From Candidatus Scalindua japonica (GTDB taxonomy: Bacteria > Planctomycetota > Brocadiia > Brocadiales > Scalinduaceae): a stretch of DNA of 64,000 nt. Shown in pieces: positions 5,066 through 62,583 of the stretch. The notes under the pieces were generated by a model. The model searched no databases, was not told the origin of the DNA, and worked only from the letters and a program-made list of their open reading frames with translations. Position 1 is the stretch's first letter, and each line of letters starts with the position of its first letter. The translations under genes were made by a program, and so were the position numbers. The stretch lies in contig NZ_BAOS01000005.1 in the NCBI RefSeq assembly GCF_002443295.1, positions 62,001 through 126,000 of the forward strand, in the 5' to 3' direction.

Positions 5066-5099
5066 CAAATATTGAAATACCTATACTTAAAATTTGTTT

Positions 5100-26640: not shown

Positions 26641-26693
26641 ACACTGAACGCCTGCCCGACTTCGTCATTCAGGCGGGGAGGCGCGAAATGTTA
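26641..26693. repeat. GC-rich dispersed repeat in a leader region
   Basis: The core at 26650-26680 starts GCCTGCCCGACTTCGTCATT and ends CAGGCGGGGAG, so that GCCTGCC and its near-complement flank a short centre. Copies or relatives are at 1875-1902, 19839-19868 (opposite strand) and, in the flanks (ACACTGA and GAAATGTTA), at 5018-5065. Confidence 0.6.
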
Positions 26694-26804
26694 TTGACTT
26701 TTGAAAGACTAAGCTTCGAGTTTGTACATTATAAATGTGTAAGCACAGACAAACAGAGTTTGTCCGTGCTACAATGTTCAAATAATTTATTTAAGGAAAG
26801 TATT

Positions 26805-29119: not shown

Positions 29120-29203
29120 TATCGGGTTGCATATTACAGGTTAGAGGTTTTGACTTGTTTCCACGCTCTTCGTCATAATTTATGGAAAGTAGCCTTATTC
29201 AAT

Positions 29204-30145
29204 ATGAAGAAAAAAAGAGTTGTTGTGTGTGGAGAGAAATGGGTAGCTGAACAGTGCCTGGAATTTCTTTACAAAAGGGAAGACACAGAGATATGTGCTA
29301 TCGTCGCTGCTCCGGAAGACTGGCAGGCTGATTTGATTTCGTTTGGAGCTAAGAGACGACTGAAAGTATTTGTTGGTAACATTAATGACTATCTTGATGA
29401 GTTAAAACAACTTCAACCGGATGTCATTTTCTCAATCCAATACCGTCCACTACTTAAACCTGCAATACTGAACCTGCCAACATCAGGTTGTATAAACCTG
29501 CATTTTGGTCTGCTTCCAAGATACGGTGGCTGCTATCCCATTGCGTGGGCAATACTGAATGGAGAGAAGCAAGCCGGCTCAACCCTTCACTACATGGTTG
29601 AACAATTCGATGAAGGAGATATCATCGCGCAGTCATCCGTTCCAATTAGAGAGGAGACGACAGCACGAGACCTTTTTGATTCGATGAGTGAAGCGGCGGT
29701 TAAACTCTTCATAGATTCTTATCCTGCTCTCTTGAGTAACGCAGTTAAATCTTACCCACAAGATATGTCAGCTAAACTATACTACCCTTATGATAGTATT
29801 GATTTCGATCGGGACCGGGTTATTGATTGGGCCAAAACAGGCGTAGAAATCCAGAGGAAAATATGTGCTTTCTCCTTTGATCCATTCCAGCAGCCACTAA
29901 CCTCCTTGTGTCTGCCTGATGGGAAACTGTTACAAGTTACAGTAACACGCTCAAGGCTGCATAGTAATGTTACTCTATCACCACAAGAGAAGACTGGTCA
30001 TATCAAAGAAGTAACTGATTCCGGAACACTACTGGTAGTAACAACCAACGGTAGTGTTATTGAAATCGGTTTGCTGAACAACCAGACACCGCTTAAATAT
30101 TTTGAAAAATCTGGACACTCTCCACAAGATGCAATTTTCAAATAA
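29204..30145 (+). CDS. Formyltransferase-family protein (sugar N-formyltransferase candidate)
   Basis: This 313-aa protein belongs to the folate-dependent formyltransferase fold (Fmt, ArnA, WbkC-like). The catalytic triad is visible as Asn and His in CINLHFGLLPRYGG and Asp in FDEGDIIAQSS. The N-terminal VVVCGEKWVAEQCLEFL starts the Rossmann-like domain. A C-terminal domain of about 100 residues resembles the FMT C-domain. Its context argues for formylation of a 4-amino sugar nucleotide, not tRNA. I start at the ATG at 29204 because the extra codons from 29150 begin with TTG and fit no family; no good ribosome-binding site is seen. Confidence 0.8.
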   Translation: MKKKRVVVCGEKWVAEQCLEFLYKREDTEICAIVAAPEDWQADLISFGAKRRLKVFVGNINDYLDELKQLQPDVIFSIQYRPLLKPAILNLPTSGCINLHFGLLPRYGGCYPIAWAILNGEKQAGSTLHYMVEQFDEGDIIAQSSVPIREETTARDLFDSMSEAAVKLFIDSYPALLSNAVKSYPQDMSAKLYYPYDSIDFDRDRVIDWAKTGVEIQRKICAFSFDPFQQPLTSLCLPDGKLLQVTVTRSRLHSNVTLSPQEKTGHIKEVTDSGTLLVVTTNGSVIEIGLLNNQTPLKYFEKSGHSPQDAIFK

Positions 30146-31380: not shown

Positions 31381-32241
31381 TCAGCTTTTTAAATTTTGAA
31401 CCTGTTTCCTTCTCAGCAAACCGTACCCAAACATCCCAAAGACACCTATACCTAATAGTAATACTGTGCCAGGCTCAGGAACAGCAGTTACTGGTAGTGC
31501 TCCATAAATGGCAGTGATGCCAGCAATATCGTCTGCGTGCAGTGCGCGCCGAGGGCCAGCATACGTCGCTTCCATTACTGAACCGGCTACTGCTGAGTGG
31601 CCCAGACCTAGCGCATGACCAAGCTCGTGTAGCGCAACGGTGTGAAAATCGATGGTGCCTCCGCCCCCGCCATCGGACCATATATTTGAGTCATCGAAGT
31701 GCATGTCACCTGCAATTGTACCCCCAGGACCGAATATAGCTTCAGTACCAGGTTGAAACGCATGTGCGAGGACATTCGGACCAACAGTACCATCAATGAA
31801 AATTGCCCCGACGCGGATGTCCCCAAGGTGACCACCAGATGCTTCAGGTGCACCTATGTCGACACCACTGTCGGCTACCATACCTAGATTCGTAAAACCC
31901 GACACGGCCGCCCACTTGTCCAATGTCAAACCTATAGTAGTTATTTCATCTACCCCACCGGCATACAAAGCGGTCAAATCAGACGTGGTAGATCCGGAAT
32001 GAGGATCACCAGGACTTGCGCTTAATGTGGGCCCCATCACGCTCCAGCTAGCGGCACCCGGTGCTGGAAAACCCCCAACTCGGGCTGTATTCAGCCCCGG
32101 ATCCCATGCGGTTGGGAGCGGAAAAAAGGTAAAATCATCACCATCCGAAAAATTAAGATATCCTGCAAATACACTCGTCGAACCCATAACAGCAACGAAA
32201 CAAACTATCAATATTATAATAAAATTTCTCATTACCCTCAC
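31381..32241 (-). CDS. PEP-CTERM matrixin-like metalloprotease
   Basis: This 286-aa exported protein has a signal peptide (FIIILIVCFVAVMG and on, cleaved near FAG), a metzincin zinc site HELGHALGLGH with a following Met-turn-like SVMEATY, and a C-terminal PEP-CTERM sorting tail (VPEPGTVLLLGIGVFGMF and a basic end). PEP-CTERM tails are processed by exosortase, which is linked to exopolysaccharide export. The start is a GTG at 32241 with AAGGAAGGGGGG upstream; the ATG nine bases inside has too little spacing to GAGGG. A glycine-rich middle (SDGGGGGTI) precedes the active site. The expected role is extracellular proteolysis or surface-protein processing. No exosortase gene is in the window. Confidence 0.88.
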   Translation of the reverse strand: MRVMRNFIIILIVCFVAVMGSTSVFAGYLNFSDGDDFTFFPLPTAWDPGLNTARVGGFPAPGAASWSVMGPTLSASPGDPHSGSTTSDLTALYAGGVDEITTIGLTLDKWAAVSGFTNLGMVADSGVDIGAPEASGGHLGDIRVGAIFIDGTVGPNVLAHAFQPGTEAIFGPGGTIAGDMHFDDSNIWSDGGGGGTIDFHTVALHELGHALGLGHSAVAGSVMEATYAGPRRALHADDIAGITAIYGALPVTAVPEPGTVLLLGIGVFGMFGYGLLRRKQVQNLKS

Positions 32242-35471: not shown

Positions 35472-35910
35472 TTATATGTTAGTTTCCTTAAATAATCTGC
35501 GTTGTCCGCTCTGGTTTTAACGCAAAATACTTTATGGTCCAATGGCTGCATATACAAAAAAACGGGCCACTACTGTTATTTAACGGGAAAAATATTCTAA
35601 AATGGTGAAAATTTATACAGTAATAAAATAAAATATCAACAGAAAGAGTATTTATAAAATATAGTTCCCAAAAGAAAATTTTTTATTCAATTATTAGAAT
35701 TTTTTATAAATTCTTCAAGACATCTATTTGTTCTGATTATAAATACACATCATAACTCGCAGAAATACAATAGATTATGATAACATATCAACATAATCCA
35801 CTGTTTGTAATCAAATCTTAAATCTGAATAAGATACAACTTATTTCCCGAACTAATGAAAAAATTAATTATATGTTCATGTTATACACAAATTAGAGACC
35901 GAAACTGCCT

Positions 35911-35926
35911 TTGGCATGTATTTAGC
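35911..35926 (+). promoter_or_regulatory. Sigma-54-type promoter upstream of the OGT-like gene
   Basis: TTGGCATG-N5-TAGC places GG (35913-35914) and GC (35925-35926) ten bases apart, with start predicted near 35938, 34 bases before the chosen ATG. Because this site falls inside the longest open frame, it also argues for the shorter start. The intergenic region 35472-35971 otherwise contains only AT-rich DNA and must hold the divergent leftward promoter for the methyltransferase operon. Confidence 0.6.
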
Positions 35927-35971
35927 TCAAGTAAGTCTAGAAAATCTAAGAAATCATCAATTATCTATATT

Positions 35972-38782
35972 ATGGAAAATTCAAATAATATATTACAAAA
36001 AGCATTAAAATATCATCAGGAAGGAAATTTAAATGATGCGGCAGCGTTTTATCTTCAGGTATACAAAACAAATCCGCATCACATTGATGTAGTCTTTTTA
36101 ATTGGTACTTTATATTTACAATCGGGAAAACTTGATGCTGCTGCTACATTTTTGAAAAAAGTAATTATACTCAATCCAAACCATGTAAAGGCCCACAATA
36201 ATCTTGGTATTATTTTTCAGAATCAGGGTAAACTTGATGAAGCAGTAGAAAGTTATTATAGAGCATTGAACCTTGCACCAGATAATGCTGAAGCATTCTA
36301 TAATCTAGGTACTGTATATAACAAACAGCGTAAATATGATAAGGCTCTAGAAAACTACAAACATGCAATACTCTTCAGACCGGATAACTATGATGCACAC
36401 TTAAATATTGGTAACATTTTCCAGGAACTTGGAAAACCTGAAGATGCCGCAACATGTTATAGGAAAGTAATTACACTTAAACCTGATTTCGTAATAGCGC
36501 ACAATAACCTTGGCATCGTGCTTTCCAAACTGTGTAAACATGATGACGCACTAAAAAGTTTTAGAAACGCACTAAATCTTAAGCCAGTAGACCCGAAAAT
36601 ACACAGTAATATCGCATCAGCATTGAAAGAGTCCGGCAGGCTGGATGAAGCAATGGAGAGCTGTAAAAAAGCAATTGAATTAGACTCCAATCATGCTGAA
36701 GCATACAACAATCTAGGTACTATTTTACAAAAAACCGGTAATCATGAAGATGCTATTATTAACTACAATAAGGCAATAAGACTGAAACCTGAAGACCCTG
36801 ATACACACAATAACCTGGGTTCAGCACTTAAAGAGTTGGGCAGAATTGATGAAGCCAAGGTTAGTTGCCGTCGTGCAATTGCTATTAATCCTGAATACGC
36901 AGACGCCTACAATAATCTTGGTACGATTCTTCAGGAAGAAGGCAGACTTGATGAAGCGATTACAAACTATAAACAAGTGATAATGATTAACGTTAACCAT
37001 GCCATGGCATACAGTAACCTTGGCACGGCATTGCATGAACAAGGCAAATTTGAAAAGGCGCTACAGAATTGTCAACATGCAGTAACTCTCAATCAACACC
37101 ATCCTTATTTACACAACAATTTGGGGACTATATTACAGGAATTGAGGAAGTTTGACGAAGCAATTGTAAGCTATAATCGTGCCATTGAACTTAAACCTGA
37201 CTATGCGGAAGCGTATGGCAATCTTGGTGCTGTCTATAAAAAACAGGGCAATGCTGAAGATGCTTTAACTTATTACAAGAAATCACGAGAACTAAAACCT
37301 CTTAATGCTGAGGTACACAAAAATATTGGTATCATACTAGAGGAATTTGGTAATACACATGATGCGCTTATTAGTTATCAAAAATCATTACAATTAAAAC
37401 ATAATCCGGGAATTGAAATAAAGGTAGCTCTACTACATCCCACTATAAATGAGTCGCAGGAATCTATAAAACAGTACAGAAAAAATCTCTTTAAAGGCTT
37501 AGAGGCACTGAATACCAAAGGGCTTAAGATTGAAGATCCTACGACAGAAATAGGTTCAACAAATTTCTTCCTTGTATACCAGGGGCTGGATGACAAGGAA
37601 ATACAGAAAAAAATCGCATCTTTTCATATTAATGTCTGTCCTGAACTTTCCTGGATATCACCTGACATTAATAAAGAACGTTCACAATCAAATAAAAAGA
37701 TCAAACTAGGCATAATCTCTCACTATCTTACTAACCACACTATCGGACTGTTAAACCATGGAATTATTAAACATATCTGCAGGGAACGTTTTCACGTTAC
37801 ATTATTTCGGTTTAATGACGAAGACGAGAATGCTACGTCAAAAGCCATAGATTGTGATGCAGATGATGTTATTGTGTTGCCGAGAAAGTTAAAACCTGCA
37901 CGTCAAAAAATTGCAGAATGTTCACTGGATATTTTGTTTTATCTTGAAATTGGTATGGATACTTTAACTTACTTTCTGGCGTTCTCACGTCTGGCACCGG
38001 TCCAATGTGTCACATGGGGACACCCTGTAACGACTGGAATTCCTAATATAGACTATTTTATTTCATCTGAAATGGCCGAATTGCCTGGAGCAGAAAAGCA
38101 TTACACGGAACAACTGGTCCTCCCGGACAGACTAACTATCTATTACTATCGACCCAAGCTTACACAAGAACTACGGCCAAGAGAATATTTTGGTCTACAC
38201 AAAAATTATAATCTATACGTATGCCCACAGACCCTTTTCAAATTACACCCCGATTTTGACAAAACTCTGGGAAATCTCTTACGTAAAGACAAATATGGAT
38301 TATTAGTGTTAATCGAAGGAAAATACAAACATTGGGAAAAAATGCTGCTTGACCGTTTCTCCAGAACATTTTCTGATGTTATAGCCCGTGTAAAGTTTCT
38401 ACCCAGAATGGCTACAAATGAGTATTTATCTTTACTGAATATTTCGGACGTACTTCTGGATCCACCTCACTATGGAGGCGGCAATACAAGTCTGGAGGCT
38501 TTTGCATTTAACATTCCGATTGTAACATGGCCGGGTGATTATTTACGCAGCAGACTGACTCTCGCTCTCTATAAGAAGCTAAATATAATGGAATGTGTAG
38601 TCGACAATAGTGTGTCATATGTTGATACAGCATATCGACTTGCAAATGATAAAGCATGGAGAAGTGAAATAACAGAAAGAATTAAATTGAAAGCAGATTG
38701 TTTGTATGAAGACAGGGAAAGCGTACATGAACTGGAACAATTCTTTGAAATGGCAATTGAAAAAGCATACAACAGAAAATAA
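35972..38782 (+). CDS. TPR protein with O-GlcNAc transferase (GT41/SPY-like) domain
   Basis: This 936-aa protein probably glycosylates protein Ser/Thr residues. About 14-15 TPR units (residues 10 to about 480) of the form AxxNLGxxLxxxGxxxEAIxxYxxAIxLxPxxxxA are followed by the two-lobed OGT catalytic region. That region begins around KIKLGIISHYLTNHTIG, where His matches the conserved base, and continues through APVQCVTWGHPVTTGIPNID and the donor-binding CPQTLFKLHPDF. It ends with YGGGNTSLEAFAFNIPIVTW. I prefer the ATG at 35972 to the frame's start at 35855 because the promoter falls between them. It is the first gene in the array of TPR transferases. Confidence 0.85.
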   Translation: MENSNNILQKALKYHQEGNLNDAAAFYLQVYKTNPHHIDVVFLIGTLYLQSGKLDAAATFLKKVIILNPNHVKAHNNLGIIFQNQGKLDEAVESYYRALNLAPDNAEAFYNLGTVYNKQRKYDKALENYKHAILFRPDNYDAHLNIGNIFQELGKPEDAATCYRKVITLKPDFVIAHNNLGIVLSKLCKHDDALKSFRNALNLKPVDPKIHSNIASALKESGRLDEAMESCKKAIELDSNHAEAYNNLGTILQKTGNHEDAIINYNKAIRLKPEDPDTHNNLGSALKELGRIDEAKVSCRRAIAINPEYADAYNNLGTILQEEGRLDEAITNYKQVIMINVNHAMAYSNLGTALHEQGKFEKALQNCQHAVTLNQHHPYLHNNLGTILQELRKFDEAIVSYNRAIELKPDYAEAYGNLGAVYKKQGNAEDALTYYKKSRELKPLNAEVHKNIGIILEEFGNTHDALISYQKSLQLKHNPGIEIKVALLHPTINESQESIKQYRKNLFKGLEALNTKGLKIEDPTTEIGSTNFFLVYQGLDDKEIQKKIASFHINVCPELSWISPDINKERSQSNKKIKLGIISHYLTNHTIGLLNHGIIKHICRERFHVTLFRFNDEDENATSKAIDCDADDVIVLPRKLKPARQKIAECSLDILFYLEIGMDTLTYFLAFSRLAPVQCVTWGHPVTTGIPNIDYFISSEMAELPGAEKHYTEQLVLPDRLTIYYYRPKLTQELRPREYFGLHKNYNLYVCPQTLFKLHPDFDKTLGNLLRKDKYGLLVLIEGKYKHWEKMLLDRFSRTFSDVIARVKFLPRMATNEYLSLLNISDVLLDPPHYGGGNTSLEAFAFNIPIVTWPGDYLRSRLTLALYKKLNIMECVVDNSVSYVDTAYRLANDKAWRSEITERIKLKADCLYEDRESVHELEQFFEMAIEKAYNRK

Positions 38783-38829: not shown

Positions 38830-41800
38830 ATGCGACCATTACTGGATATGGATGTAATCCAGATAGAAATCACTAATGCATGTGTACACCAATGTGCTAA
38901 CTGTACACGGCTGGTCGGTCACTCAAAAAAACCATTCTTTATGGATTTAGACTTCTTCAAGAAAGCGGTAGATTCACTTGTAGATTATCCAAAGATTATA
39001 GGAATTATGGGTGGTGAGCCCCTGCTGCATCCTCAGTTTACAGAGATGGCTGCATATCTTAAATCAAAGGTCCCCGATAAAATAAAATGTGGTCTATGGT
39101 CAACACTGCCAAAGGGAAAAGAGAAGTACGCTCCTATAATTGCTGATGTATTCGGTAATGTACTTTTAAACGACCATACACTGGGCAAGTTGTATCATTC
39201 TCCGATACTTGTTTCGGCAAATGAATCTGTCGTAGACAAATTTAAAATGTGGTACCTCATTGACCATTGCTGGGTACAAAACTGTTGGAGCGCCTCAATC
39301 AACCCTAAAGGAGCTTTTTTCTGTGAAATAGCAGCAGCCTTCGATATTGTTTTTGATGGACCGGGTGGTTGGACTGTGTCACCGGAATGGTGGAAAAAAA
39401 CTCCGAAGGACTATGTAGAACAGATGAAGCAGTATTGTGTTAATTGTAGCGCCGCACTTCCATTGCATGCCAGGCTTGATACGGAGGAGACTGATGACAT
39501 AAGCAAGGGTAATCTTGAACGATTGATCAAAGTTGGTTCGCCAAAAGTAAAACGAGGAAAGTATTCCATTTATGACAAGGGAGAAAGAGACAGCAATTAC
39601 CATATTAACGAATTCCGGAATAATATTGAATATCAAATGAAAATTGCTGACAAGTATGGATTATATTTGAGGCAAAACAAACTTGGATACCTCCAGCCAT
39701 TTTTAAAAAACACTCCAAAGAGTCAAGATGAAATTAATATAAAGGATTGTCTGCAGAAAGGACACACATATCATCAAGCGGGAAATTTAAAAGAAGCATC
39801 TATACTTTATCAGAAAATACTTGCACAACAGCAGGAACATATTGATGCAAACTTCCTCCTGGGCACATTATATCTTCAAGCTGGAAATCTCGATAAAGCT
39901 GCCGAGCTCCTGCAAAAAACAGTTTTGCTCAAACCAGATCATGTAGAAGCTAATAATAATCTGGGTACAGTACTTCAGAATCAAGGTAAACTTGATGAGG
40001 CGGCAGAGAGTTACAAAAGAGCATTATGTCTTGCACCGGATTATTCTGAAGCATTTTATAATTTAGGCAATATATTTTACAAACAGCATAAATTTAATAA
40101 GGCGATTGAACATTACAAACAGGCAATTATTTTAAAGCCGGACGATCATGAGGCATTTTTAAATCTTGGAAATGTGTTTAAGGAACTTGGAAAAATTGAT
40201 GACGCGGAGAGAGAATATAGAAAGTCAATCTCTCTGAAACCTGACTATCCAGTAGCACACAGTCGACTTGGAGCGATTCTTCAGGAACTGGGCAAACTTG
40301 ATGAGTCTATTAAAAGTATTAAACGTGCACAAATTCTTGATCCGGATAATATTGATATTCTCAATAATCTTGCTACTATTCTTTCAAAACAGGGAGAATA
40401 TGATGAAGCGATAGAGAGCTACAATAGAGCCTTAAAATTAAAACCAGATGCATACCTTATACAGACTAATCTTGCTTCCACACTTAAAGATTCAGGCAGA
40501 TTAGAAGAGGCATTAACCAGTTGTAACAAAGCAATAGAGATAAACCCAAATTATCCTGAATCACATAACACGCTTGGTGTGATACTGCAAGGGTCCGGTC
40601 AACTTGAGGAAGCGGTAAAAAGCTATAAAAAGGCAATAGAACTTCAACCGGACAATCCAGAGTTATACAGTAACCTTGGTTCCGTACTTAAAGAGCTGGA
40701 TAGGTTTGATGAAGCAGTCGAATGCTGCAAACACTCGATTGAACTCAATCCGGAGAACGCCGATGCATTCAACAATCTTGGCACAATACTTCAAGAACAG
40801 AGAAAACTTGACGAAGCAATAGCAAATTATAAACAAGCAATAAAGCTTATGCCGGACCATGCAAGAGCACACAGTAACCTTGGCACGGTATCACAGAAAC
40901 AGGGTAACACGGTGGAAGCGGTATTATATTGCCACCTGGCAGTAACACTTAATCCCGGTAGTGCTGAACTCCACAACAACCTTGGCGCAATACTCCAGAA
41001 ACAGGAGAGGGTTGACGAAGCAATAACGTGTTATGACAATGCAATAGAACTTGAACCGGATTATACGGAAGCACACTTAAACAGATCTTTTGCATTATTG
41101 TTAACAGGAAAATATAAAGAGGGATGGGAGGAAAATGAATGGAGACTTAAAACAAAAGCACACTGTCTGAGAAAGTTCCACAATCTCAGATGGGACGGGT
41201 CACCTCTTAAGGGCAAGACCATTCTGGTATATGCTGAGCAAGGTTTTGGAGACACTATACAATTTGTACGTTACCTGCCAATGGTACAGGAACAGGGAGG
41301 CCGCGTAATTTTCGAATGTCACAAGAGTCTGCATCGTCTACTTAGAGATTGTACAGGAATCGATAAGGTGGTCGAAAAAACAACTGAACCGAAAATAACA
41401 TTTGATACACATATCAGCCTTTTAAGTTTACCGGGAATTTTTAACACCACCTTGAATTCAATACCATCTGAGACACCTTACATTAGTGTTAATTCCGGAT
41501 TAGCAAAACTGTGGCGTAATCTACACACGTACAACAATGATTTTAAGATAGGTATTGTATGGGCAGGAAACGCTGAGAACAAGAGAGACAATATCCGCTC
41601 CTGTTCTCTCAAAGACTTCTATCCCTTGTTGAATATTCAAGGGACGGCTTTTTACAGTCTTCAAAAAGGACCGGCATCCGGTGAAACGGAGAACACACCG
41701 CCAGGAATAAAGATCATTAATCTGAATAATCAGTTAAGAGACTTTGCTGACACAGCTGCCATAATCGATAATCTGGACCTTGTCATTTCAGTTGATACTG

Positions 41801-42015
41801 CTGTCGCACATCTTGCGGGAGCACTTGGTAAACCAGTGTGGAACCTGTTACATTTTGCACCGGACTGGCGCTGGCTGCTTAATCGTAACGACAGCCCATG
41901 GTATCCGGAAATGCGTTTATTCAGACAAAACATATTAAATGACTGGACTTACCTGTTTAAGGAAGTAAAGAATGCATTATTACAAGAAGTCAATGACATT
42001 AAAAAAAACAACTAA
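38830..42015 (+). CDS. Radical SAM - TPR - GT9-like glycosyltransferase fusion
   Basis: This 1061-aa protein joins three functions. Residues 1 to about 260 are a radical SAM domain with cluster motif CVHQCANC (Cx3Cx2C) and the family's GGEPLLHPQF. Cysteines near residues 150-210 (QNCWSASINPKGAFFCE and QYCVNCS) look like an extra SPASM-type cluster site. Residues about 300-740 are some 13 TPRs. The last 300 residues are GT9-like (heptosyltransferase fold): VYAEQGFGDTIQFVRYLPMV, KIGIVWAGN, DLVISVDTAVAHLAGALGKP and APDWRWLL. GGAGAAA precedes the ATG. It follows the OGT-like gene by 47 bp. I know of no characterised protein with this order; function is inferred only by part. Confidence 0.85.
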   Translation: MRPLLDMDVIQIEITNACVHQCANCTRLVGHSKKPFFMDLDFFKKAVDSLVDYPKIIGIMGGEPLLHPQFTEMAAYLKSKVPDKIKCGLWSTLPKGKEKYAPIIADVFGNVLLNDHTLGKLYHSPILVSANESVVDKFKMWYLIDHCWVQNCWSASINPKGAFFCEIAAAFDIVFDGPGGWTVSPEWWKKTPKDYVEQMKQYCVNCSAALPLHARLDTEETDDISKGNLERLIKVGSPKVKRGKYSIYDKGERDSNYHINEFRNNIEYQMKIADKYGLYLRQNKLGYLQPFLKNTPKSQDEINIKDCLQKGHTYHQAGNLKEASILYQKILAQQQEHIDANFLLGTLYLQAGNLDKAAELLQKTVLLKPDHVEANNNLGTVLQNQGKLDEAAESYKRALCLAPDYSEAFYNLGNIFYKQHKFNKAIEHYKQAIILKPDDHEAFLNLGNVFKELGKIDDAEREYRKSISLKPDYPVAHSRLGAILQELGKLDESIKSIKRAQILDPDNIDILNNLATILSKQGEYDEAIESYNRALKLKPDAYLIQTNLASTLKDSGRLEEALTSCNKAIEINPNYPESHNTLGVILQGSGQLEEAVKSYKKAIELQPDNPELYSNLGSVLKELDRFDEAVECCKHSIELNPENADAFNNLGTILQEQRKLDEAIANYKQAIKLMPDHARAHSNLGTVSQKQGNTVEAVLYCHLAVTLNPGSAELHNNLGAILQKQERVDEAITCYDNAIELEPDYTEAHLNRSFALLLTGKYKEGWEENEWRLKTKAHCLRKFHNLRWDGSPLKGKTILVYAEQGFGDTIQFVRYLPMVQEQGGRVIFECHKSLHRLLRDCTGIDKVVEKTTEPKITFDTHISLLSLPGIFNTTLNSIPSETPYISVNSGLAKLWRNLHTYNNDFKIGIVWAGNAENKRDNIRSCSLKDFYPLLNIQGTAFYSLQKGPASGETENTPPGIKIINLNNQLRDFADTAAIIDNLDLVISVDTAVAHLAGALGKPVWNLLHFAPDWRWLLNRNDSPWYPEMRLFRQNILNDWTYLFKEVKNALLQEVNDIKKNN

Positions 42016-42073: not shown

Positions 42074-45000
42074 ATGAATCAAAAAGTGAAAGGTAACATG
42101 AGGAAGTGTCAAGAAGCACTTAAACTTCACCAGGCTGGAAATTTTGTTGATGCGGAAATACTTTATAATAAAATACTTGAAACAGAACCTGCAAACATTG
42201 ACACAATCTTTTTCCTTGGAACACTTAAACTGCAGCAAGGTGATACAGGAACAGCTCGTGCGTTACTGGAGAACACAATAATACTTAAACCTGACCATGC
42301 AGCAGCATACAATAATCTTGGAACAGTATTTAAAGAACAGAACAAATTTGAAGAGGCAATCAAAAACTATAATAAGTCTTTAGCGCTTAAACCGGACTAT
42401 GCAATGGCACACAATAATTTAGGAAATCTACTTAAGGACATTGGTAAATTTGCTGAAGCGGAAACAAGTTGTCGACGTGCAATATTGCTCCAACCTGACT
42501 TTTCGGATGCACACAATAATCTAGCATCCACACTACAGAAACAGGGTAAGCATGAAGAAGCAATCAGGAGTTACAACCTGGCAGTAAAATATAATCCCAA
42601 AAGTGTTCACGCGCACATAAACAGGTCGTCCGCATTGCTGTTAACAGAAAACCTTGAAGATGGATGGCCGGAATATGAGTGGAGACTGCAAACAAAAAAT
42701 TATAACTCCAGCAAATTCCAACTGCCCCATTGGGACGGTTCACCGCTGAATGGAAAAACAATTTTTGTACATGCTGAACAGGGATATGGAGATACCATCC
42801 AATTTGTACGCTACCTGCCAATGGTCAAAGACCTTGGAGGACATGTGATATTTGAATGCCAGAAGGAGCTTATTCGTTTACTGAAAAATTGCGCAGGTAT
42901 AGATGAAATTGTAGAAATGATGCCCAGCCAGGACATAGTTTTCGACACACACATTCATCTGTTAAGCCTGCCTGGCATATTCGGCACAAATATGGATTCT
43001 ATCCCATCATGTACACCTTATATAACAGTGGACCCTGTACTTTCAGAAAAGTGGAGATTACAACTTTCCAATAATAATAATTTGAAAATCGGCATCGTCT
43101 GGGCTGGTAGATCAACATTTAAAGACCATTATCGCTCTTGTACATTTGATGATTTTATTTCGTTGTCAGAAATCCCAGGTATTACTTTCTACAGCCTTCA
43201 AAAAGGCCCATCGTCTGAGGAAGCATTAAACGCGCCTGAAGATATGAAAGTTATCAACCTTGATAAAGAGTTGAACGATTTCGATGACACTGCTGCTGTA
43301 ATGAATAATCTGGACTTAATAATTTCCACTGATACGGCAGTTGCACATCTTGCCGGGGCAATAGGCAAACCTGTATGGACACTCTTGCATACTTCATCTG
43401 ACTGGCGCTGGTTCCTTAATCGTGAATGCAGTCCATGGTATCCTGAAATGCGCTTGTTCAGACAATCCGTATTTAGTGATTGGAGAGGTGTGTTTGATAA
43501 AGTAAAAACATCATTAATTTCCATTTTTGGACCACAGATTGGTATTTATGGGGAAAATAAGACTACAAATTCTGAAATCCAAAACCTGAGATTATCAGAC
43601 TTATTACAAGAAGCACATAGGCATCATCAGGCTGGAGATTTCACCTCCGCAATAATGTGTTACAACATAGCTATTAAAAAGCACCCTGATAATGCACTGA
43701 CACACTTCCATCTTGGCTCTGCTCTTCATGGAACAGGAAGAATTGATGATGCATTGGCCAGCTACAGGAAAGCAAAAGAACTCAAGCCTGACTACAGCGA
43801 CGCATATTACAGCCTCGGTAATACATACAGAGAACAAGGTAAGATCAAAGAAGCCGTCGTAAATTACCTGCAAGCCGTATCTCTAAAACCTGACAATGCT
43901 GAAATACACTGTAACCTAGGCGCGGCACTTCAGGAATCGGGCAGACCAGATGAGGCAATTGTAAGCTACAAAAAGGCAATAACACTTAATCCTTACTATG
44001 CAATGGCACATTGCAATCTTGGTTCTTTGCTTCATGAATCAGGCAAACTAAATGATGCAGCAGCAAGTTACAAAAGATCAACTGAGATCAATCCTGATTT
44101 GGCCCTTGCACACAACAACCTTGGTACTGCATTTAAGGATTTGGGCAGGCTTGATGAATCTGTTGAAAGCTATAGAAAAGCAATAGCACTAAAACCAGAC
44201 TATGCGGAAGCGCATAATAATCTAGGAACTGCACTTCTTGAACAACATAAACTTCAGGAAGCTGTTATAAGTTATAACCGGGCTTTAGAGATCAGACCAA
44301 AATATGCCGAGGCATACAATAATCTAGGCACTATTCTTCAAGAATTGTGCCAACTTGATCAAGCTGTAGAAAACTACAGAAAAGCAATAGCGCTAAAACC
44401 GAACTTTGCGGAAGCATACAACAACCTAGGGACAGCGCTCCAGGATTCAGGTAAACATGGTGAGGCTTTAGCATATTATAAGCAGGCAACTATACTGAAG
44501 CCGGATTTTGCTCTGGCTCATGTAAACAGATCATTTGTATTATTACTGACAGAGAACTTTAAGGAAGGATGGAAAGAATACAAATGGCGGCTCAACATAA
44601 AAAATCGCGCCTCTACAACTCGTAATCATCATATGTGGAATGGCGGTCCACTGAATGGAAAATCTATTTTGGTCCACGCAGAACAGGGTTTTGGAGATAC
44701 CATACAATTTGTCAGATATCTGCCGATGGTTAAAGAACAAGGTGGCCATGTAGTATTAGCGTGCCATAAAAGTCTTCATCGCTTATTTAAAAATTACAAT
44801 GGAATCGATGAAATTATAGAAAAGAGTTCTGTTAATACATTACCGGAACAACCTGATGTCCATATTCATCTCTTAGACTTGCCGGGATTATTTGAAACTA
44901 CACTGAAATCAATACCGCTAAAAACACCATATATTACCCCGGATCAGATACTGGTAGATCAATGGGCAAGCTGGTTTAAGACTCGTAAAGATTTTAAAAT

Positions 45001-45472
45001 TGGATTAGTCTGGGCGGGAAACCCACATCATTCAAAAGATCATAATCGTTCCTGTTCACTATCTGATTTTAACAAATTAACTGATGTCCCAGAGTGGTCC
45101 TTTTACAGTCTTCAAAAGGTTAATTACCCGATCGATTCCAAAGATACACCAATTGGAATGAACATAGTCAACATTGGCAAAGGATTAAATGACTTTGCCG
45201 ACACAGCTGCCGTAATTGCTAACCTGGATCTTGTAATAACAGTTGACACCGCAGTTGCTCATCTGGCGGGTGCTATTGGCAAACCGGTGTGGACTCTTTT
45301 ACCTTTCGCGCCTGACTGGCGCTGGCTACTTAAACGTAATGACAGCCCATGGTATCCGACCATGCGCTTATTTCGTCAAAATCAGCCTGGTAATTGGACA
45401 GAAGTATTTGAACAGGTAAAAGAGGAATTAACTAACAATTTCTGTTTGCAGGTAACGGAAGTAAATGAGTAA
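42074..45472 (+). CDS. Double TPR-GT9-like glycosyltransferase
   Basis: This 1132-aa protein contains two complete TPR-GT9 modules in one chain. Module 1: about 5 TPRs, then FVHAEQGYGDTIQFVRYLP, IGIVWAGRSTFKDHYRSC and STDTAVAHLAGAIGKPVWTL to about residue 480. Module 2: about 10 TPRs (residues 510-830), then LVHAEQGFGDTIQFVRYLPM, IGLVWAGNPHHSKDHNRSC and VDTAVAHLAGAIGKPVWTLL. The linker around residue 500 (IGIYGENKTTNSEIQNLRLS) looks like the join of two once-separate genes. The stop is followed by the leftward lipoprotein gene. The start ATG has AAGGA twelve bases upstream. Confidence 0.85.
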   Translation: MNQKVKGNMRKCQEALKLHQAGNFVDAEILYNKILETEPANIDTIFFLGTLKLQQGDTGTARALLENTIILKPDHAAAYNNLGTVFKEQNKFEEAIKNYNKSLALKPDYAMAHNNLGNLLKDIGKFAEAETSCRRAILLQPDFSDAHNNLASTLQKQGKHEEAIRSYNLAVKYNPKSVHAHINRSSALLLTENLEDGWPEYEWRLQTKNYNSSKFQLPHWDGSPLNGKTIFVHAEQGYGDTIQFVRYLPMVKDLGGHVIFECQKELIRLLKNCAGIDEIVEMMPSQDIVFDTHIHLLSLPGIFGTNMDSIPSCTPYITVDPVLSEKWRLQLSNNNNLKIGIVWAGRSTFKDHYRSCTFDDFISLSEIPGITFYSLQKGPSSEEALNAPEDMKVINLDKELNDFDDTAAVMNNLDLIISTDTAVAHLAGAIGKPVWTLLHTSSDWRWFLNRECSPWYPEMRLFRQSVFSDWRGVFDKVKTSLISIFGPQIGIYGENKTTNSEIQNLRLSDLLQEAHRHHQAGDFTSAIMCYNIAIKKHPDNALTHFHLGSALHGTGRIDDALASYRKAKELKPDYSDAYYSLGNTYREQGKIKEAVVNYLQAVSLKPDNAEIHCNLGAALQESGRPDEAIVSYKKAITLNPYYAMAHCNLGSLLHESGKLNDAAASYKRSTEINPDLALAHNNLGTAFKDLGRLDESVESYRKAIALKPDYAEAHNNLGTALLEQHKLQEAVISYNRALEIRPKYAEAYNNLGTILQELCQLDQAVENYRKAIALKPNFAEAYNNLGTALQDSGKHGEALAYYKQATILKPDFALAHVNRSFVLLLTENFKEGWKEYKWRLNIKNRASTTRNHHMWNGGPLNGKSILVHAEQGFGDTIQFVRYLPMVKEQGGHVVLACHKSLHRLFKNYNGIDEIIEKSSVNTLPEQPDVHIHLLDLPGLFETTLKSIPLKTPYITPDQILVDQWASWFKTRKDFKIGLVWAGNPHHSKDHNRSCSLSDFNKLTDVPEWSFYSLQKVNYPIDSKDTPIGMNIVNIGKGLNDFADTAAVIANLDLVITVDTAVAHLAGAIGKPVWTLLPFAPDWRWLLKRNDSPWYPTMRLFRQNQPGNWTEVFEQVKEELTNNFCLQVTEVNE

Positions 45473-49651: not shown

Positions 49652-49704
49652 AGAACAATCAGAAGTACTTATAACAAAAGATCTGAAGAGTGGTTAAACT
49701 TATT

Positions 49705-51597
49705 ATGCCAGAAATAAAAACCAATACATTGATTCAGGAAGCGTACCAGCTGCATCAGGCAGGAATGCTAACAAAAGCCGAAAAACTTTATAATAAACTG
49801 ATCAAAGAGCAACCGAACCAGATAGATGCTCTCTTCCTCCTGGGAACGCTTAATTTGCAACAAATGGACTTTGACACTGCATGTAGGTTTTTCAGAAAAA
49901 CACTTAAATTAATGCCTGATCACGCTATAGCACATTGTAACCTCGGTACATCACTTCATGGATCAGGAAAGCTTGAGGAAGCCATTGTAAGTTATAAGAA
50001 GTCAATATCACTCAGACCGGAATATGCTGAAGCACATTATAACCTTGGTAATGCATTCAAGGAGCAGGGACAACTCAAAAAGGCTGTTGAAAGCTATACT
50101 CAGGCAATATTGTATAAACAGAATTATGTTGACGCATACTACAATCTGGGTAATGTTCTCCGTTCACTGCATAGTCCTGATAAAGCAGTTGATAGTTACA
50201 AGAAAGCAATAATGCTTAAACCGGATTACGCAATGGCGCACTGCAATCTTGGCTCTGTCCTTCAGGAACTTGGTAAGATTGATGAAGCGATAGTTTGTTA
50301 CAAAATTGCAACGACATTCAGGTCGGATTATGTAATGGCATACTGCAATCTTGGTGCTGCATATCAAGAGCTTAGAAAGATTGATAAGGCAATAACGGTA
50401 TATAAAAAAGCTCTTTCATTAAATCCTGACTTTGTATTAGCAAATTGCAACCTGGGTTCTGCTTTGCAGGAAGCAGGACTATTGGACGAAGCGAAAACAT
50501 GTTATAAAAAAACTATTGCATTAAACCCTGAGTATGCGATGGCATACTCAAATCTCGGTTCAATATACCAGGAGTTTGGTAATATTGACAAGGCAGTAGA
50601 AAATTATGATCAAGCTATATCTCTGAACCCTGATGAACCTACGGCACATAAGAATAAATCTATCGCACTATTATTAAATGAGAACTTCATAGAGGGTTGG
50701 CCGGAATACGAATGGAGGCTTAAAACAAAGACCAATAGTCTAAGAGACTTCCTTAAACCAAGGTGGGACGGCTCTTCTCTGAGTGGAAATACTATTCTGG
50801 TTCATGCAGAGCAGGGTTTTGGAGATACTATACAATTTGTTCGATATCTTCCCATGGTTAAAGCACAGGGAGGACACGTGATATTCGAGTGTCATGACAG
50901 TCTCTTGCGTCTGCTCAAAAACTGTGATGGAATTGATAGAATTATAGAGAGATCATCTCATACTGTTCCGGATATACATTTTGATTTTCATATACCACTT
51001 TTAAGTTTACCAGGGTTATTTAAAACTACCATAGATTCAATACCATCTGATGTTCCCTATGTCTCGGTAGATGCGGGCCTTTCAGAGAAATGGCGATATA
51101 GGCTAAGCAATGACAGTAAATATAAGATTGGTATTGTATGGGCAGGTAATCCCTTATTTAAGAACTACAATACCAGGTCCAGCTCCCTGTCAGATTTCGC
51201 GGCTTTAGCAGAAATAAGAGAGCTATCACTCTACAGTCTTCAAAAAGGATCATCCACTTTAGAAAAAGATAATATTCCAGAGTTAAGTATCAAAGACTTG
51301 AGTAAAGAGTTAAATGATTTTGCGGACACTGCGGCAGTAATGAGTAATCTGGATCTTGTCATTTCAACAGACACTGCTGTAGTACATTTAGCCGGAGCTA
51401 TAGGTAAACCGGTGTGGACATTATTACATTCAGCGCCTGACTGGCGTTGGTGGCTTAAACGTACCGATAGCCCGTGGTATCCGAGTATGCGGTTGTTTAG
51501 ACAAAAACAGTTAAATGATTGGACAGGAGTGTTTGAGCAGGTGAAGGAAGCATTGGTTCCGGAGTGCAGATTGAGGAATACAAATTTCCAAACATAA
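49705..51597 (+). CDS. TPR-GT9-like glycosyltransferase
   Basis: This 630-aa protein is the single-module form of the array. About 9 TPRs cover residues 5-325, with joined units of the type YAEAHYNLGNAFKEQGQLKK. A GT9-like domain follows, marked by LVHAEQGFGDTIQFVRYLPM, KIGIVWAGNPLFKNY, STDTAVVHLAGAIGKPVWTL and APDWRWWLKR. The ATG at 49705 is chosen; a GTG at 49690 would add five codons and neither start has a good ribosome-binding site. It is followed by a further TPR fusion 87 bp on and is likely cotranscribed with it. Confidence 0.85.
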   Translation: MPEIKTNTLIQEAYQLHQAGMLTKAEKLYNKLIKEQPNQIDALFLLGTLNLQQMDFDTACRFFRKTLKLMPDHAIAHCNLGTSLHGSGKLEEAIVSYKKSISLRPEYAEAHYNLGNAFKEQGQLKKAVESYTQAILYKQNYVDAYYNLGNVLRSLHSPDKAVDSYKKAIMLKPDYAMAHCNLGSVLQELGKIDEAIVCYKIATTFRSDYVMAYCNLGAAYQELRKIDKAITVYKKALSLNPDFVLANCNLGSALQEAGLLDEAKTCYKKTIALNPEYAMAYSNLGSIYQEFGNIDKAVENYDQAISLNPDEPTAHKNKSIALLLNENFIEGWPEYEWRLKTKTNSLRDFLKPRWDGSSLSGNTILVHAEQGFGDTIQFVRYLPMVKAQGGHVIFECHDSLLRLLKNCDGIDRIIERSSHTVPDIHFDFHIPLLSLPGLFKTTIDSIPSDVPYVSVDAGLSEKWRYRLSNDSKYKIGIVWAGNPLFKNYNTRSSSLSDFAALAEIRELSLYSLQKGSSTLEKDNIPELSIKDLSKELNDFADTAAVMSNLDLVISTDTAVVHLAGAIGKPVWTLLHSAPDWRWWLKRTDSPWYPSMRLFRQKQLNDWTGVFEQVKEALVPECRLRNTNFQT

Positions 51598-57760: not shown

Positions 57761-58891
57761 ATGGGTTTAAGAATACAAAATAATATATCAGCTTTTAACT
57801 CACACAGAAATCTTAAAATTGCAGATGCCGGATTATCAAAATCGCTTGAGAAACTCTCTTCAGGTTTCAGGATTAATAAGGCATCTGATGACGCAGCAGG
57901 TCTTGCTGTATCTATGCGATTCAGATCACAGATTAAGAGTTTGCAGCAGGCAAGTAGAAATGCTACAGAAGCGAATTCAATGTTGCAGATTGCAGAAGGT
58001 GCTGCGGACCAGATAACGAATATCCTGCAGAGGATGAAGGAACTTGCTACACAAGCTGCATCTACTAACACAGGTGCTACTGACCGAAATAACATCAGCG
58101 CTGAAGTTAACAACCTTGAATCAGAAATAAGCCGAATTGCCAATTCTACAAAATATTCCGGTACATCTTTAATTGACGGTAATTTTGGATCCCTTGGTGT
58201 CAGTTCTGCAGGTAGTTTGGTCTCACAATTCGGTATAACAGCCGTTGATGTTTCTGGTGCTGCTACCGCTACAGAATATGGTATAACAGTGAGTACTGCC
58301 GGAAACAACAGTATGACAATTACAGATGGCACTACTACAGAGACGGTTTCTATCACTACAGCGTCTACAGGTCTTGATACACAGACACTGGATTTTTCAA
58401 ATCTGGGCATCAAGGTTGATGTTAATGCAGTATTCTCTAACGATACGTTGAACACAATGGATGCCGCTGCCAGCACCATGGTAACCAGCGCTACTACTAC
58501 TTCATCTTTCCAGGTTGGTTATGAGAACAACAGTAATAACAGTATCAGTTTCTCTTTGGCAGATCTGACCACAGCTGGATTAACTGCAGGTGTTGATGTA
58601 AGTTCTTTGTCTGGTGCACAAACCGCATTGACAACGATAGATACTGCTATGGATACTCTGGCTGACGCTCGCGCGACAATTGGTAAAACACAAAACCAGT
58701 TTGGTTATGCAACAGCTAACCTATCCAGTACGATTGAGAATTTGAGCGCTGCCGAATCCGTTATTCGTGATGCGGATATGGCCCTTGAAACAGTAGCGTT
58801 CACGAAGAACCAGATTCTGATGCAAGCAGGTACTTCAATGCTTGCCCAGTCTAACCAGTCACCTCAAGTAGTTTTAAGTCTGCTCGGATAA
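57761..58891 (+). CDS. fliC: Flagellin
   Basis: This 376-aa protein builds the flagellar filament. The N-terminal D0/D1 region begins GLRIQNNISAFNSHRNLKIA and carries SKSLEKLSSGFRINKASDDA. The C-terminus has VIRDADMALETVAFTKNQIL, ending in QVVLSLLG. The middle (about 145-290) is variable and very rich in Ser/Thr, plausible glycosylation acceptors. AAGGAGG precedes the ATG. A strong terminator lies 40 bp downstream. It lacks any cysteine, as usual for flagellins. It may be substrate for the transferases encoded upstream; this is inferred. Confidence 0.95.
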   Translation: MGLRIQNNISAFNSHRNLKIADAGLSKSLEKLSSGFRINKASDDAAGLAVSMRFRSQIKSLQQASRNATEANSMLQIAEGAADQITNILQRMKELATQAASTNTGATDRNNISAEVNNLESEISRIANSTKYSGTSLIDGNFGSLGVSSAGSLVSQFGITAVDVSGAATATEYGITVSTAGNNSMTITDGTTTETVSITTASTGLDTQTLDFSNLGIKVDVNAVFSNDTLNTMDAAASTMVTSATTTSSFQVGYENNSNNSISFSLADLTTAGLTAGVDVSSLSGAQTALTTIDTAMDTLADARATIGKTQNQFGYATANLSSTIENLSAAESVIRDADMALETVAFTKNQILMQAGTSMLAQSNQSPQVVLSLLG

Positions 58892-59457: not shown

Positions 59458-62400
59458 ATGCCAGGTACGAGTGCAATAGGAGGTCTGGTTTCTGGTCTTG
59501 ATACTGCAACCCTCATAGAACAGCTTATTGGTGTCAGTAGAAAACGTGTAGATATTGTTGTTAATAATCAAACGTTACAAAGCGATAAGTTGACAGCGTT
59601 TAAATCGCTCAATACTCAGCTTTCAACCTTCCAGGCAAAGGCAAAGGCTCTTACAGAAGACGACATTTTTGATGTTTTTAAGACCTCAACGTCTACAAAC
59701 TCAACAAACTTTTCATCCGATGAACTCGTTTCAATTTCAACAACATCAGACGCGAGTCCAGGCACACATACAATATCATTTACGTCCAGCTCACAGTTGG
59801 CACAGGCAAGACAGATGTCATCAATGAGTTTTACCAGCTCATCAACAGCACTGGGCCTTACCGGTGAGTTTGTCATTAACGGCAATGCTATAAGTATATC
59901 CACAACAGACTCTCTTTCTGACGTTATATCATCAATAAATACAGCAAATTCAGGCACTAATGCTACCGGTGTAACTGCGACATTAATATCTGTTTCAGAT
60001 ACTGATAACCGCATGGTCCTTACCAGCGATAATACAGGGGAAGACAAGTTTTCCATACTTGATGCGTCTTCTGATGCCGAAGATATACTGGAAGCGATGG
60101 GCCTTGCCTCAAGCACACAGTCTATCAAGAACGCTACAAGTGATGGAGCAAAGTCAGATGCATTCTCCAGCAGCAGTACCGCAGTTCAATCACTGCTTGG
60201 TTTGACAACTGCTCAAAACGGTACAGTAACTATTGGAGGAGAAAGTGTTGTTATAGACCTTTCCTCTCAATCTTTATCTACGATAGCAACTAATATTAAC
60301 ACCGCACTTACAGGGGCATCAAAAGGGACTGCCACAGTTGCCAGCACTACTACTGACGGAGTTACAACTTACCAGATTGATATTAACGGCACTACAAGTT
60401 ATACGGACACCAACAATATACTTGAAACATTAGGCATCATAAAAAGGGGTCAGAGTTCAGTCGCCGAAGAACATACCGGGTCCACAGCTAACACGAAAAC
60501 CAGTGGTGCTGGCGGAGGAGTAGTCGCCAGTGCAACAACATTTTCAGAAATTAATACCGGTAGCGACGCAAATAATGTTGCCAACAACGACACAGTTACA
60601 TTGACAGGTACAAACCATGACGGGAATGCTGTGACCGGAACATATACAATAACGGACAAGACCACTGATACAATAGATGGTCTACTGACACAGATAGAAA
60701 ATACTTTCGGCCTTGGAGCAGGCAGCGCGACAATTGATGCTTCAGGAAAGGTTATTATAACTGATGACACTACTGGTGACAGCCAGTTGAGTATTGAAAT
60801 AATTACGAATAATGAAGGCGGTGGTACCCTTGATTTTGGTACTGTTTCCGTAACTACTGAAGGTTATGATATGGAAGTAACAGCAGGCCAGGACGCAAAG
60901 ATAACAATTGACGGAATTGCTGTCTCACGGAGCAGTAATTCTATTGATGATGTCATTAGCGGTGTTACCCTTGATTTAAACCGAGTTGAGTCGGGAAGTA
61001 CGGTAAATCTGACGATCTCCAGAGATACTGACAGTATAAAATCAAGTGTAAATGACTTTGCTACCGCATACAATGATATAATTGAATTCATAAATCAGGA
61101 ATTCGCATTTAACGAAGATTCGGAAAGCGCCGGTATCCTGTCTGGTGAAAGTACTTTGAGGACAATTAAAAGTATTATTCAATCAACCATATCAGCTTCA
61201 GTACCATTACTTCCTACTGATTCCAATGCTCTCTCATTAATAGGGATAACATCGGACAAATATGGAAAGTTGTCAGTAAAAGACAGCACATTCTTAAAGA
61301 AAATTAATTCTGATTTTTATGCTGTCAAAAGGATGTTTGTCGCGGAAGGAACTACTACCAATACTGAAATTTCTTATATAAGCCACACAAAAGATACAGT
61401 TGCAGGCAACTATGCCGTGAGCATTAATACGGTTGCATCTCAGGCGTCCGAAACAGGATCTATTGTTCTTACCAATGGAATCGGGGCCGGTCTTACTGAT
61501 ACTCTGACAATTACAGATACTGCTACCAACAGGGTTGCGACAATAAGTCTTGATGGGAACGCGTCTGAGAATGGCAGCACTATTGATAATATCGTAAACG
61601 CAATAAATTCAGAACTTGATACAGAGCGGACACAAACACTTGTAGGCAGCATTGCAAATACAAAGACCACAGGCGCAGGAGGTGGAATAATAACTGCCAG
61701 TACAAAGTTTAATGAGATTAATACCGGAGGAGATGCGAATGACCTGTCTGATAATGATGTTATTTCATTTACCGGTACCAACAGGTCCGGGCTTAGTATA
61801 AGTAATTCGTATACAATCAGTGACGTCTCAACAGGTACCGTACAGGACTTTCTTTCCACGATAGAAAAAGCTTATGAAAATAGTGTATCAGCGACAATTA
61901 ATGCTTCCGGAAATATTGTGTTAACTGACATTACCGACGGTGACAGCCAAGTCTCGATTTCAATAACTGAGCCCGGTAGCCTGAATTTTGGTTCTGTAAA
62001 GACCTCCAACGAAGGCGGTGTTACCGGTAGGTACGGAATGGAGATTACAGCATCCAACGATGGCAGTGATCATCTTGTCCTTACACATGATACTTATGGG
62101 AGTGGATTTGGTTTTACCACTGTTGAGATAAATGACCTCCTGGGAACTGAGGGTACTTACAGCGGAACAGACGTTGCCGGTACAATAAATGGTGAAGCTG
62201 CTACAGGTACAGGCCAAATCCTGGTAGGCGATGCCCCATCGGATACTGAATCTTCCACGAGTATTGAAGACCTTACATTAAAAGTGACTTCCACCACTAC
62301 TGGTACAAAGGGTAATGTAAAGCTTACAATGGGAGTAGGTGAATTGATGCATAGTGATGTTGATTCAATTATTGATCAATTTGATGGGTTACTCACCATA

Positions 62401-62583
62401 AGAATGGATGGTCTGCAAGATACAATAGATGACATGCAGAATTCCATCCTGGGGATGGAAGAGCGACTGGCAATGGAAACATTGCGACTCAATGAACAAT
62501 TTGTTGCACTGGAATTAAATCTTTCAAAACTTCAATCAGTAAGCTCTTTCATGGCACAACAACTTGGTATGCTTGGCAAGTAG
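59458..62583 (+). CDS. fliD: Flagellar hook-associated protein 2 (filament cap), extra long
   Basis: FliD caps the growing filament and helps flagellin fold. This protein has 1041 aa, about twice the usual length. The N-terminus (SAIGGLVSGLDTATLIEQLI) and C-terminus (IRMDGLQDTIDDMQNSILGM, LNLSKLQSVSSFMAQQLGML) fit FliD, with the coiled-coil ends that form D0. A long Thr/Ser-rich variable middle contains an internal repeat: GSTANTKTSGAGGGVVASA and GSIANTKTTGAGGGIITAS each start a segment of about 130 residues. AAGGAGG precedes the ATG. It is read together with the small paralogue upstream. Confidence 0.92.
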   Translation: MPGTSAIGGLVSGLDTATLIEQLIGVSRKRVDIVVNNQTLQSDKLTAFKSLNTQLSTFQAKAKALTEDDIFDVFKTSTSTNSTNFSSDELVSISTTSDASPGTHTISFTSSSQLAQARQMSSMSFTSSSTALGLTGEFVINGNAISISTTDSLSDVISSINTANSGTNATGVTATLISVSDTDNRMVLTSDNTGEDKFSILDASSDAEDILEAMGLASSTQSIKNATSDGAKSDAFSSSSTAVQSLLGLTTAQNGTVTIGGESVVIDLSSQSLSTIATNINTALTGASKGTATVASTTTDGVTTYQIDINGTTSYTDTNNILETLGIIKRGQSSVAEEHTGSTANTKTSGAGGGVVASATTFSEINTGSDANNVANNDTVTLTGTNHDGNAVTGTYTITDKTTDTIDGLLTQIENTFGLGAGSATIDASGKVIITDDTTGDSQLSIEIITNNEGGGTLDFGTVSVTTEGYDMEVTAGQDAKITIDGIAVSRSSNSIDDVISGVTLDLNRVESGSTVNLTISRDTDSIKSSVNDFATAYNDIIEFINQEFAFNEDSESAGILSGESTLRTIKSIIQSTISASVPLLPTDSNALSLIGITSDKYGKLSVKDSTFLKKINSDFYAVKRMFVAEGTTTNTEISYISHTKDTVAGNYAVSINTVASQASETGSIVLTNGIGAGLTDTLTITDTATNRVATISLDGNASENGSTIDNIVNAINSELDTERTQTLVGSIANTKTTGAGGGIITASTKFNEINTGGDANDLSDNDVISFTGTNRSGLSISNSYTISDVSTGTVQDFLSTIEKAYENSVSATINASGNIVLTDITDGDSQVSISITEPGSLNFGSVKTSNEGGVTGRYGMEITASNDGSDHLVLTHDTYGSGFGFTTVEINDLLGTEGTYSGTDVAGTINGEAATGTGQILVGDAPSDTESSTSIEDLTLKVTSTTTGTKGNVKLTMGVGELMHSDVDSIIDQFDGLLTIRMDGLQDTIDDMQNSILGMEERLAMETLRLNEQFVALELNLSKLQSVSSFMAQQLGMLGK

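Follow-up and report, generated by a model that had tools for sequence, protein, structure and literature searches.

Within the 64,000-nucleotide window analyzed here, taken from contig NZ_BAOS01000005.1 of Candidatus Scalindua japonica, a single open reading frame (ORF) encodes a radical SAM domain, an array of tetratricopeptide repeats (TPRs), and a GT9-like glycosyltransferase. An earlier reading made from the letters of the window (the sequence-only reading) had claimed an uninterrupted frame of this kind. That frame is present, with no stop codon at the junction, and an AGGAG motif ahead of its ATG provides a good ribosome-binding site. The proposed order of domains, from radical SAM through about 13 TPRs to a heptosyltransferase-like region, agrees with the Pfam matches and, for the two end domains, with the structural models, and the intact motifs named for the two ends, CVHQCANC and DTAVAHLAGALGKP, are found as written. 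The fused ORF, its domains, and the neighboring genes that bear on its role are collected in the table.

Table. Features of the fused ORF and its surroundings (positions within the window)
Feature	Position	Strand	Evidence or remarks
TPR and GT41-like (OGT/NGT type) protein	35855..38782	+	PF13844 (4e-19); 47 nt upstream of the fused ORF
Radical SAM-TPR-GT9 ORF	38830..42015	+	ATG start; 1061 aa; unbroken frame
Radical SAM and twitch domain, residues 1 to ~294	38830..39711	+	PF04055, conserved Cys, AlphaFold, Foldseek
Junction, residues 295-307	39712..39750	+	Comparison with a stand-alone 314-aa gene (L038 8250-9194); start-codon, frame, and repeat check
About 13 TPRs, residues ~303-744	39736..41061	+	TPR_1 matches and count by eye
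GT9-like GT-B domain, residues 745-1061	41062..42012	+	PF01075, model, Foldseek, 29-row alignment
Tandem TPR-GT9-TPR-GT9 protein, 1132 aa	42074..45472	+	PF01075 in the first GT unit; 58 nt downstream of the fused ORF
TPR and GT9-like protein, same island	49690..51597	+	Pfam
TPR and GT2 protein, 1089 aa	51685..54954	+	GT9-like domain also in the same frame
Flagellin, probable acceptor	57761..58891	+	PF00669 (5e-39), PF00700 (8e-24)
FliD filament cap	59458..62583	+	PF07195 (3e-37), PF02465 (3.5e-14)

The TPR-glycosyltransferases, which are of the GT41, GT9, and GT2 types, form a block that stands upstream of the genes for flagellin and FliD, the latter pair being 16-17 kb downstream of the fused gene. 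Genes for an aminotransferase, a methyltransferase, and other sugar enzymes surround the fused gene. Judged by its gene content, the block is probably a flagellin glycosylation-type island. The protein encoded at 42074-45472 displays a tandem duplication inside one gene, and a 1123-aa TPR-GT9 frame is found in a same-family genome.

Elsewhere in the window, a Gfo/Idh/MocA oxidoreductase, a B12-binding radical SAM protein, and a formyltransferase are encoded in a row (26688-30145, + strand), possibly as a second unusual-sugar module of the island. The window also harbors an ABC-transporter permease frame (BPD_transp_1; 5094-7328, + strand) that encloses a WD40-like stretch and is adjoined by genes for a PBP-type binding protein and a porin O/P, as well as a Matrixin-type metallopeptidase carrying a PEP-CTERM sorting signal (31381-32241, - strand).

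The domains of the fused protein

The middle and end of the protein consist of about 13 TPRs followed by a complete GT9-like GT-B domain. Pfam returns 11 significant TPR_1 stretches, and 13 units of 34 residues are counted by eye. The isolated C-terminal part matches Glyco_transf_9 (PF01075) at 5.5e-6, a match that spans 32 residues only, and DTAVAHLAGALGKP falls at residues 989-1002 by count on the translation. The motifs EQ..GD and DT.V.HL.GA are invariant in a 29-row alignment of the domain. A profile search against PDB sequences gave no match for the GT9 domain. In Foldseek, the top PDB fold matches of the model are full-length GT9 enzymes (3tov at 1.3e-9, WaaF/WaaC, and TibC). The assignment to GT9 combines a GT-B fold with the family signature, as PF01075 scores above its cutoff and GT9 structures head the Foldseek matches.

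The N-terminal domain belongs to the radical SAM superfamily by its CX3CX2C motif, its fold, and an above-cutoff match to PF04055 (3.2e-7 with the isolated N-terminal part as query). In the translation, the RS-cluster motif reads C18-VHQ-C22-AN-C25, and a GGEP motif occupies residues 61-64. The weak Pfam scores of both end domains are backed by models computed from alignments of relatives; structure prediction, which the sequence-only reading had suggested as a check, gave AlphaFold pLDDT values of 95.1 for the radical SAM domain and 89.3 for the glycosyltransferase domain.

The additional cysteines remarked upon from the sequence can now be divided into two groups. Among 91 aligned relatives, C18, C22, and C25 are present in every one, and C147, C165, C203, and C206 in 90, the remaining row being gapped there; C87 and C152 are unconserved. 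The seven invariant cysteines are those predicted for the RS cluster and one four-Cys twitch cluster. In the model, C147 is followed by a hairpin (155-163), C165, a helix (196-205), and C203-X2-C206, a layout whose positions correspond to the twitch pattern of a beta-hairpin flanked by single cysteines and a helix that ends in two more (PMC6231123), the cluster itself being predicted. In the spacing of the auxiliary cysteines, CX13GX3C, the stretch that follows the glycine has one residue fewer than in the SPASM consensus.

Enzymes with a SPASM domain have seven cysteines for two auxiliary clusters. With only four conserved cysteines after the RS motif, filing of the domain among the SPASM peptide maturases is ruled out. 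The best full-length fold matches are SpeY (3e-8) and BtrN (3.7e-5), which cover nearly the whole model, and BtrN is also matched by profile (2.5e-4). TM-scores for these two are 0.45-0.50, with an rmsd of 7-10 A and an identity of about 14%; such modest values do not fix the reaction type.

A widespread radical SAM family in glycan loci

A single-sequence scan of genome contigs with the radical SAM domain found nothing, and single-sequence searches of the PDB and of annotated phage and plasmid records gave no match. The alignment-based scan found relatives at about 70 genome loci in many phyla (69 in the scan of genome contigs) and at 12 viral-contig loci. They either stand alone, at about 280-340 aa, or are extended at the C-terminus, and by these sequence comparisons they form an uncharacterized family that is widespread in bacteria, archaea, and phages. 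Profile searches placed the family in at least three of 392 genomes of the phylum and at least ten of 277 genomes of the class of Trichlorobacter, where the only long frame among the ten is fused to a GT2 (both counts are lower bounds; the first look scored part of the candidates per genome).

Among 97 nearest-neighbor proteins of the relatives, 36 are GT2 enzymes, 7 are epimerases or dehydratases, and 5 are nucleotidyltransferases. Flagellin lies within 20 kb of the radical SAM gene in 4 of 31 genomes, slightly above a rough chance estimate; an association with flagellin across the whole family is therefore unsupported, and the flagellin link applies mainly to the window's own clade. In locus L044 (400-3492), a GDPD-like protein (with no Pfam match), a HAD hydrolase, and two nucleotidyltransferases are encoded upstream of the radical SAM gene. 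Lachnospiraceae loci, L088 and L073 among them, have like proteins near the radical SAM gene, which hints that a sugar pathway is conserved. On a viral contig (L037 5343-8157), the radical SAM gene has methyltransferase-like neighbors as well as one of the Glyco_tranf_2_4 type, and this type of glycosyltransferase is also fused to a radical SAM domain in L161.

Members of the family appear, from their sequences, to have been fused to glycosyltransferases more than once, in separate lineages: a GT8 fusion is found in L084 (5e-41, no TPR array) and a GT2 fusion in L161 (1.6e-8), together with a weak GT2 match in L107. The sequence-only reading had known of no characterized protein with the order radical SAM-TPR-GT9. 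The exact order does stand alone, in that no other example was found among about 730 genomes against which the radical SAM domain was run as a protein or profile query, or among the loci of the collection scans; the general idea of joining a radical SAM enzyme to a glycosyltransferase is not unique, given the GT8 and GT2 fusions within the same family.

That reading had also left open whether a peptide or a sugar is modified. Action on the flagellin polypeptide itself, by side-chain oxidation, epimerization, or cross-linking, would fit with the TPR part presenting a protein. Twitch and SPASM clusters are also found in peptide maturases; peptide-acting enzymes with such domains are common, weak matches to such families were obtained here, and SkfB and SuiB appear lower in the Foldseek list. 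We nevertheless regard a peptide target as very unlikely. The cysteines suffice for one auxiliary cluster only, unlike those of the SPASM peptide maturases, the fusion partners are recurrently glycosyltransferases of different families, and some relatives, those of archaea, phages, and polysaccharide-type loci, have no TPR or flagellin neighbors but lie beside glycosyltransferases, epimerases, and nucleotidyltransferases. A sugar substrate is favored by these neighbors and by SpeY and BtrN as best structural matches, and the suggested tie between radical chemistry and glycosylation gains support from the neighbors and the fusions alike.

Origin of the fusion

The two halves are encoded separately in relatives. 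Candidatus Scalindua arabica has a stand-alone radical SAM gene whose product is 81% identical and which is directly preceded by a TPR-GT41 gene (L038 5865-8231); this is the same gene that precedes the fused ORF in the window. Related TPR-GT9 frames in same-genus and same-family genomes are mostly about 500-810 aa (one has 1123) and are without a radical SAM domain, and the radical SAM gene was not found in those genomes except in that of Ca. S. arabica. Genes for TPR-GT41, radical SAM, TPR-GT41, TPR-GT9, and flagellin stand side by side in this order, all separate, in Trichlorobacter thiogenes and in a MAG of the Desulfuromonadaceae. In the radical SAM tree, the two Scalindua proteins and those of Trichlorobacter and the Desulfuromonadaceae form one clade (support 99/97). 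As the neighbors were already partners as separate genes in relatives, they would have merged in the genome of the window. The fusion joins end to end two complete genes that a genome of the same genus and Desulfuromonadota still keep apart, and it is no enzyme type of ancient origin: it looks recent and, on this comparison, is lineage-specific and built from known kinds of module.

Read against the stand-alone gene, the junction is the end of an ancestral radical SAM gene that has run into the start of a TPR gene. An origin of the long ORF through a frameshift or a second start is ruled out by the start-codon and frame check: codons 280-366 contain no in-frame ATG, GTG, or TTG. An artefact of assembly or sequencing, with two genes in the cell, has to be weighed, as the assembly comprises 47 contigs, the radical SAM and TPR-GT9 genes are separate everywhere else examined, and a single fused copy is known, with no second one confirming it. 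This we consider very unlikely. A separate TPR gene would have no start codon, the other two frames are closed by many stops, and GC content is alike on the two sides (0.399 and 0.389). Moreover, no exact repeat of at least 20 nt is shared between 39550-40300 and the remainder of the window, making a repeat-driven misassembly unlikely.

A second possibility is that the fusion is a neutral read-through, in which the halves work as before and tethering has no role. It is found in one lineage only, and multi-domain TPR-glycosyltransferase fusions are common in the island and its relatives, as in the ORF at 42074 and the GT4-TPR-GT9 protein of L044. Against this, radical SAM-glycosyltransferase joining arose several times with different glycosyltransferase families, a repetition that suggests some benefit. 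A neutral fusion is accordingly judged unlikely, though less so than an artefact.

A proposed role in flagellin glycosylation, and known counterparts

The reading we propose, with confidence evenly balanced, is of a bifunctional flagellin-glycosylation enzyme in which a radical SAM dehydrogenase makes a keto-sugar that the tethered TPR-glycosyltransferase attaches. The N-terminal domain would be a radical SAM enzyme that is sensitive to oxygen and carries an auxiliary cluster of the twitch type. Its 5'-deoxyadenosyl radical would abstract hydrogen from one of the carbons of a sugar that is either nucleotide-linked or already on flagellin. The auxiliary cluster would pass on the electrons of a two-electron oxidation to yield the keto-sugar, and further enzymes of the island may go on to aminate, reduce, or methylate this product. 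As in FlmG-type enzymes, flagellin would be held in the cytoplasm by the TPR superhelix and would receive the sugar from the GT9-like domain, and the fusion would keep modification and transfer together.

The radical SAM domain may instead perform other sugar chemistry in the same glycan pathway, as an epimerase, a dehydratase or deoxygenase, or a C-C bond former. The chemistry of the superfamily is diverse, the PDB matches are distant, and the genomic neighbors are compatible with any sugar modification; the top two full-length folds are both dehydrogenases, however, and a single, fully Cys-ligated auxiliary cluster is the BtrN pattern. We hold this for somewhat unlikely. A bolder version of the proposed dehydrogenation, offered tentatively and as rather doubtful, is that the sugar is oxidized in place after the glycosyltransferase domain has attached it, with flagellin held by the TPRs. 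If true, this would be a remodeling of a protein glycan for which no description was found, and the family would represent broad, unrecognized radical enzymes of glycans in bacteria, archaea, and phages.

Among open-licence papers, our search found none that links a radical SAM enzyme to the glycosylation of flagellin. The fusion points to a radical SAM-twitch family, widespread but uncharacterized, whose genes lie in glycan loci; repeated fusion within the family is genomic evidence that its chemistry is coupled to glycosyl transfer. With a stand-alone gene close to its flagellin gene, the isolate Trichlorobacter thiogenes offers a pure culture in which the question can be tested.

Among known and newly found counterparts, the L084 and L161 fusions share a homologous N-terminal radical SAM-twitch region and a C-terminal glycosyltransferase, but differ in glycosyltransferase family, in lacking a TPR array, and in lineage. 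SpeY and BtrN share the CX3CX2C motif, a length of about 250-320 aa, and a fold matched over nearly the full length, and BtrN, which catalyzes the two-electron oxidation of an aminocyclitol (PMC9012708), also shares a single four-Cys auxiliary cluster (predicted here). They differ in acting on small aminocyclitol-antibiotic precursors and in being unfused and outside glycosylation islands, and at about 14% identity the modeled agreement with such dehydrogenases is in fold and cysteine pattern only. The GT9 heptosyltransferases WaaC and WaaF and the autotransporter heptosyltransferase TibC share the GT-B fold and the PF01075 signature, and TibC also glycosylates a protein; they have no TPRs, and TibC has other inserts and forms a dodecameric ring. 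FlmG of Caulobacter, a flagellin O-glycosyltransferase likened here by architecture and flagellin neighborhood, has N-terminal TPRs and a C-terminal GT-B domain and is encoded in a flagellin region; its TPR half binds flagellin, and its GT-B half is inactive without the TPR half (PMC7591256). It differs in its length of 596 aa, in having no radical SAM domain, and in its need for pseudaminic acid (PMC7591256).
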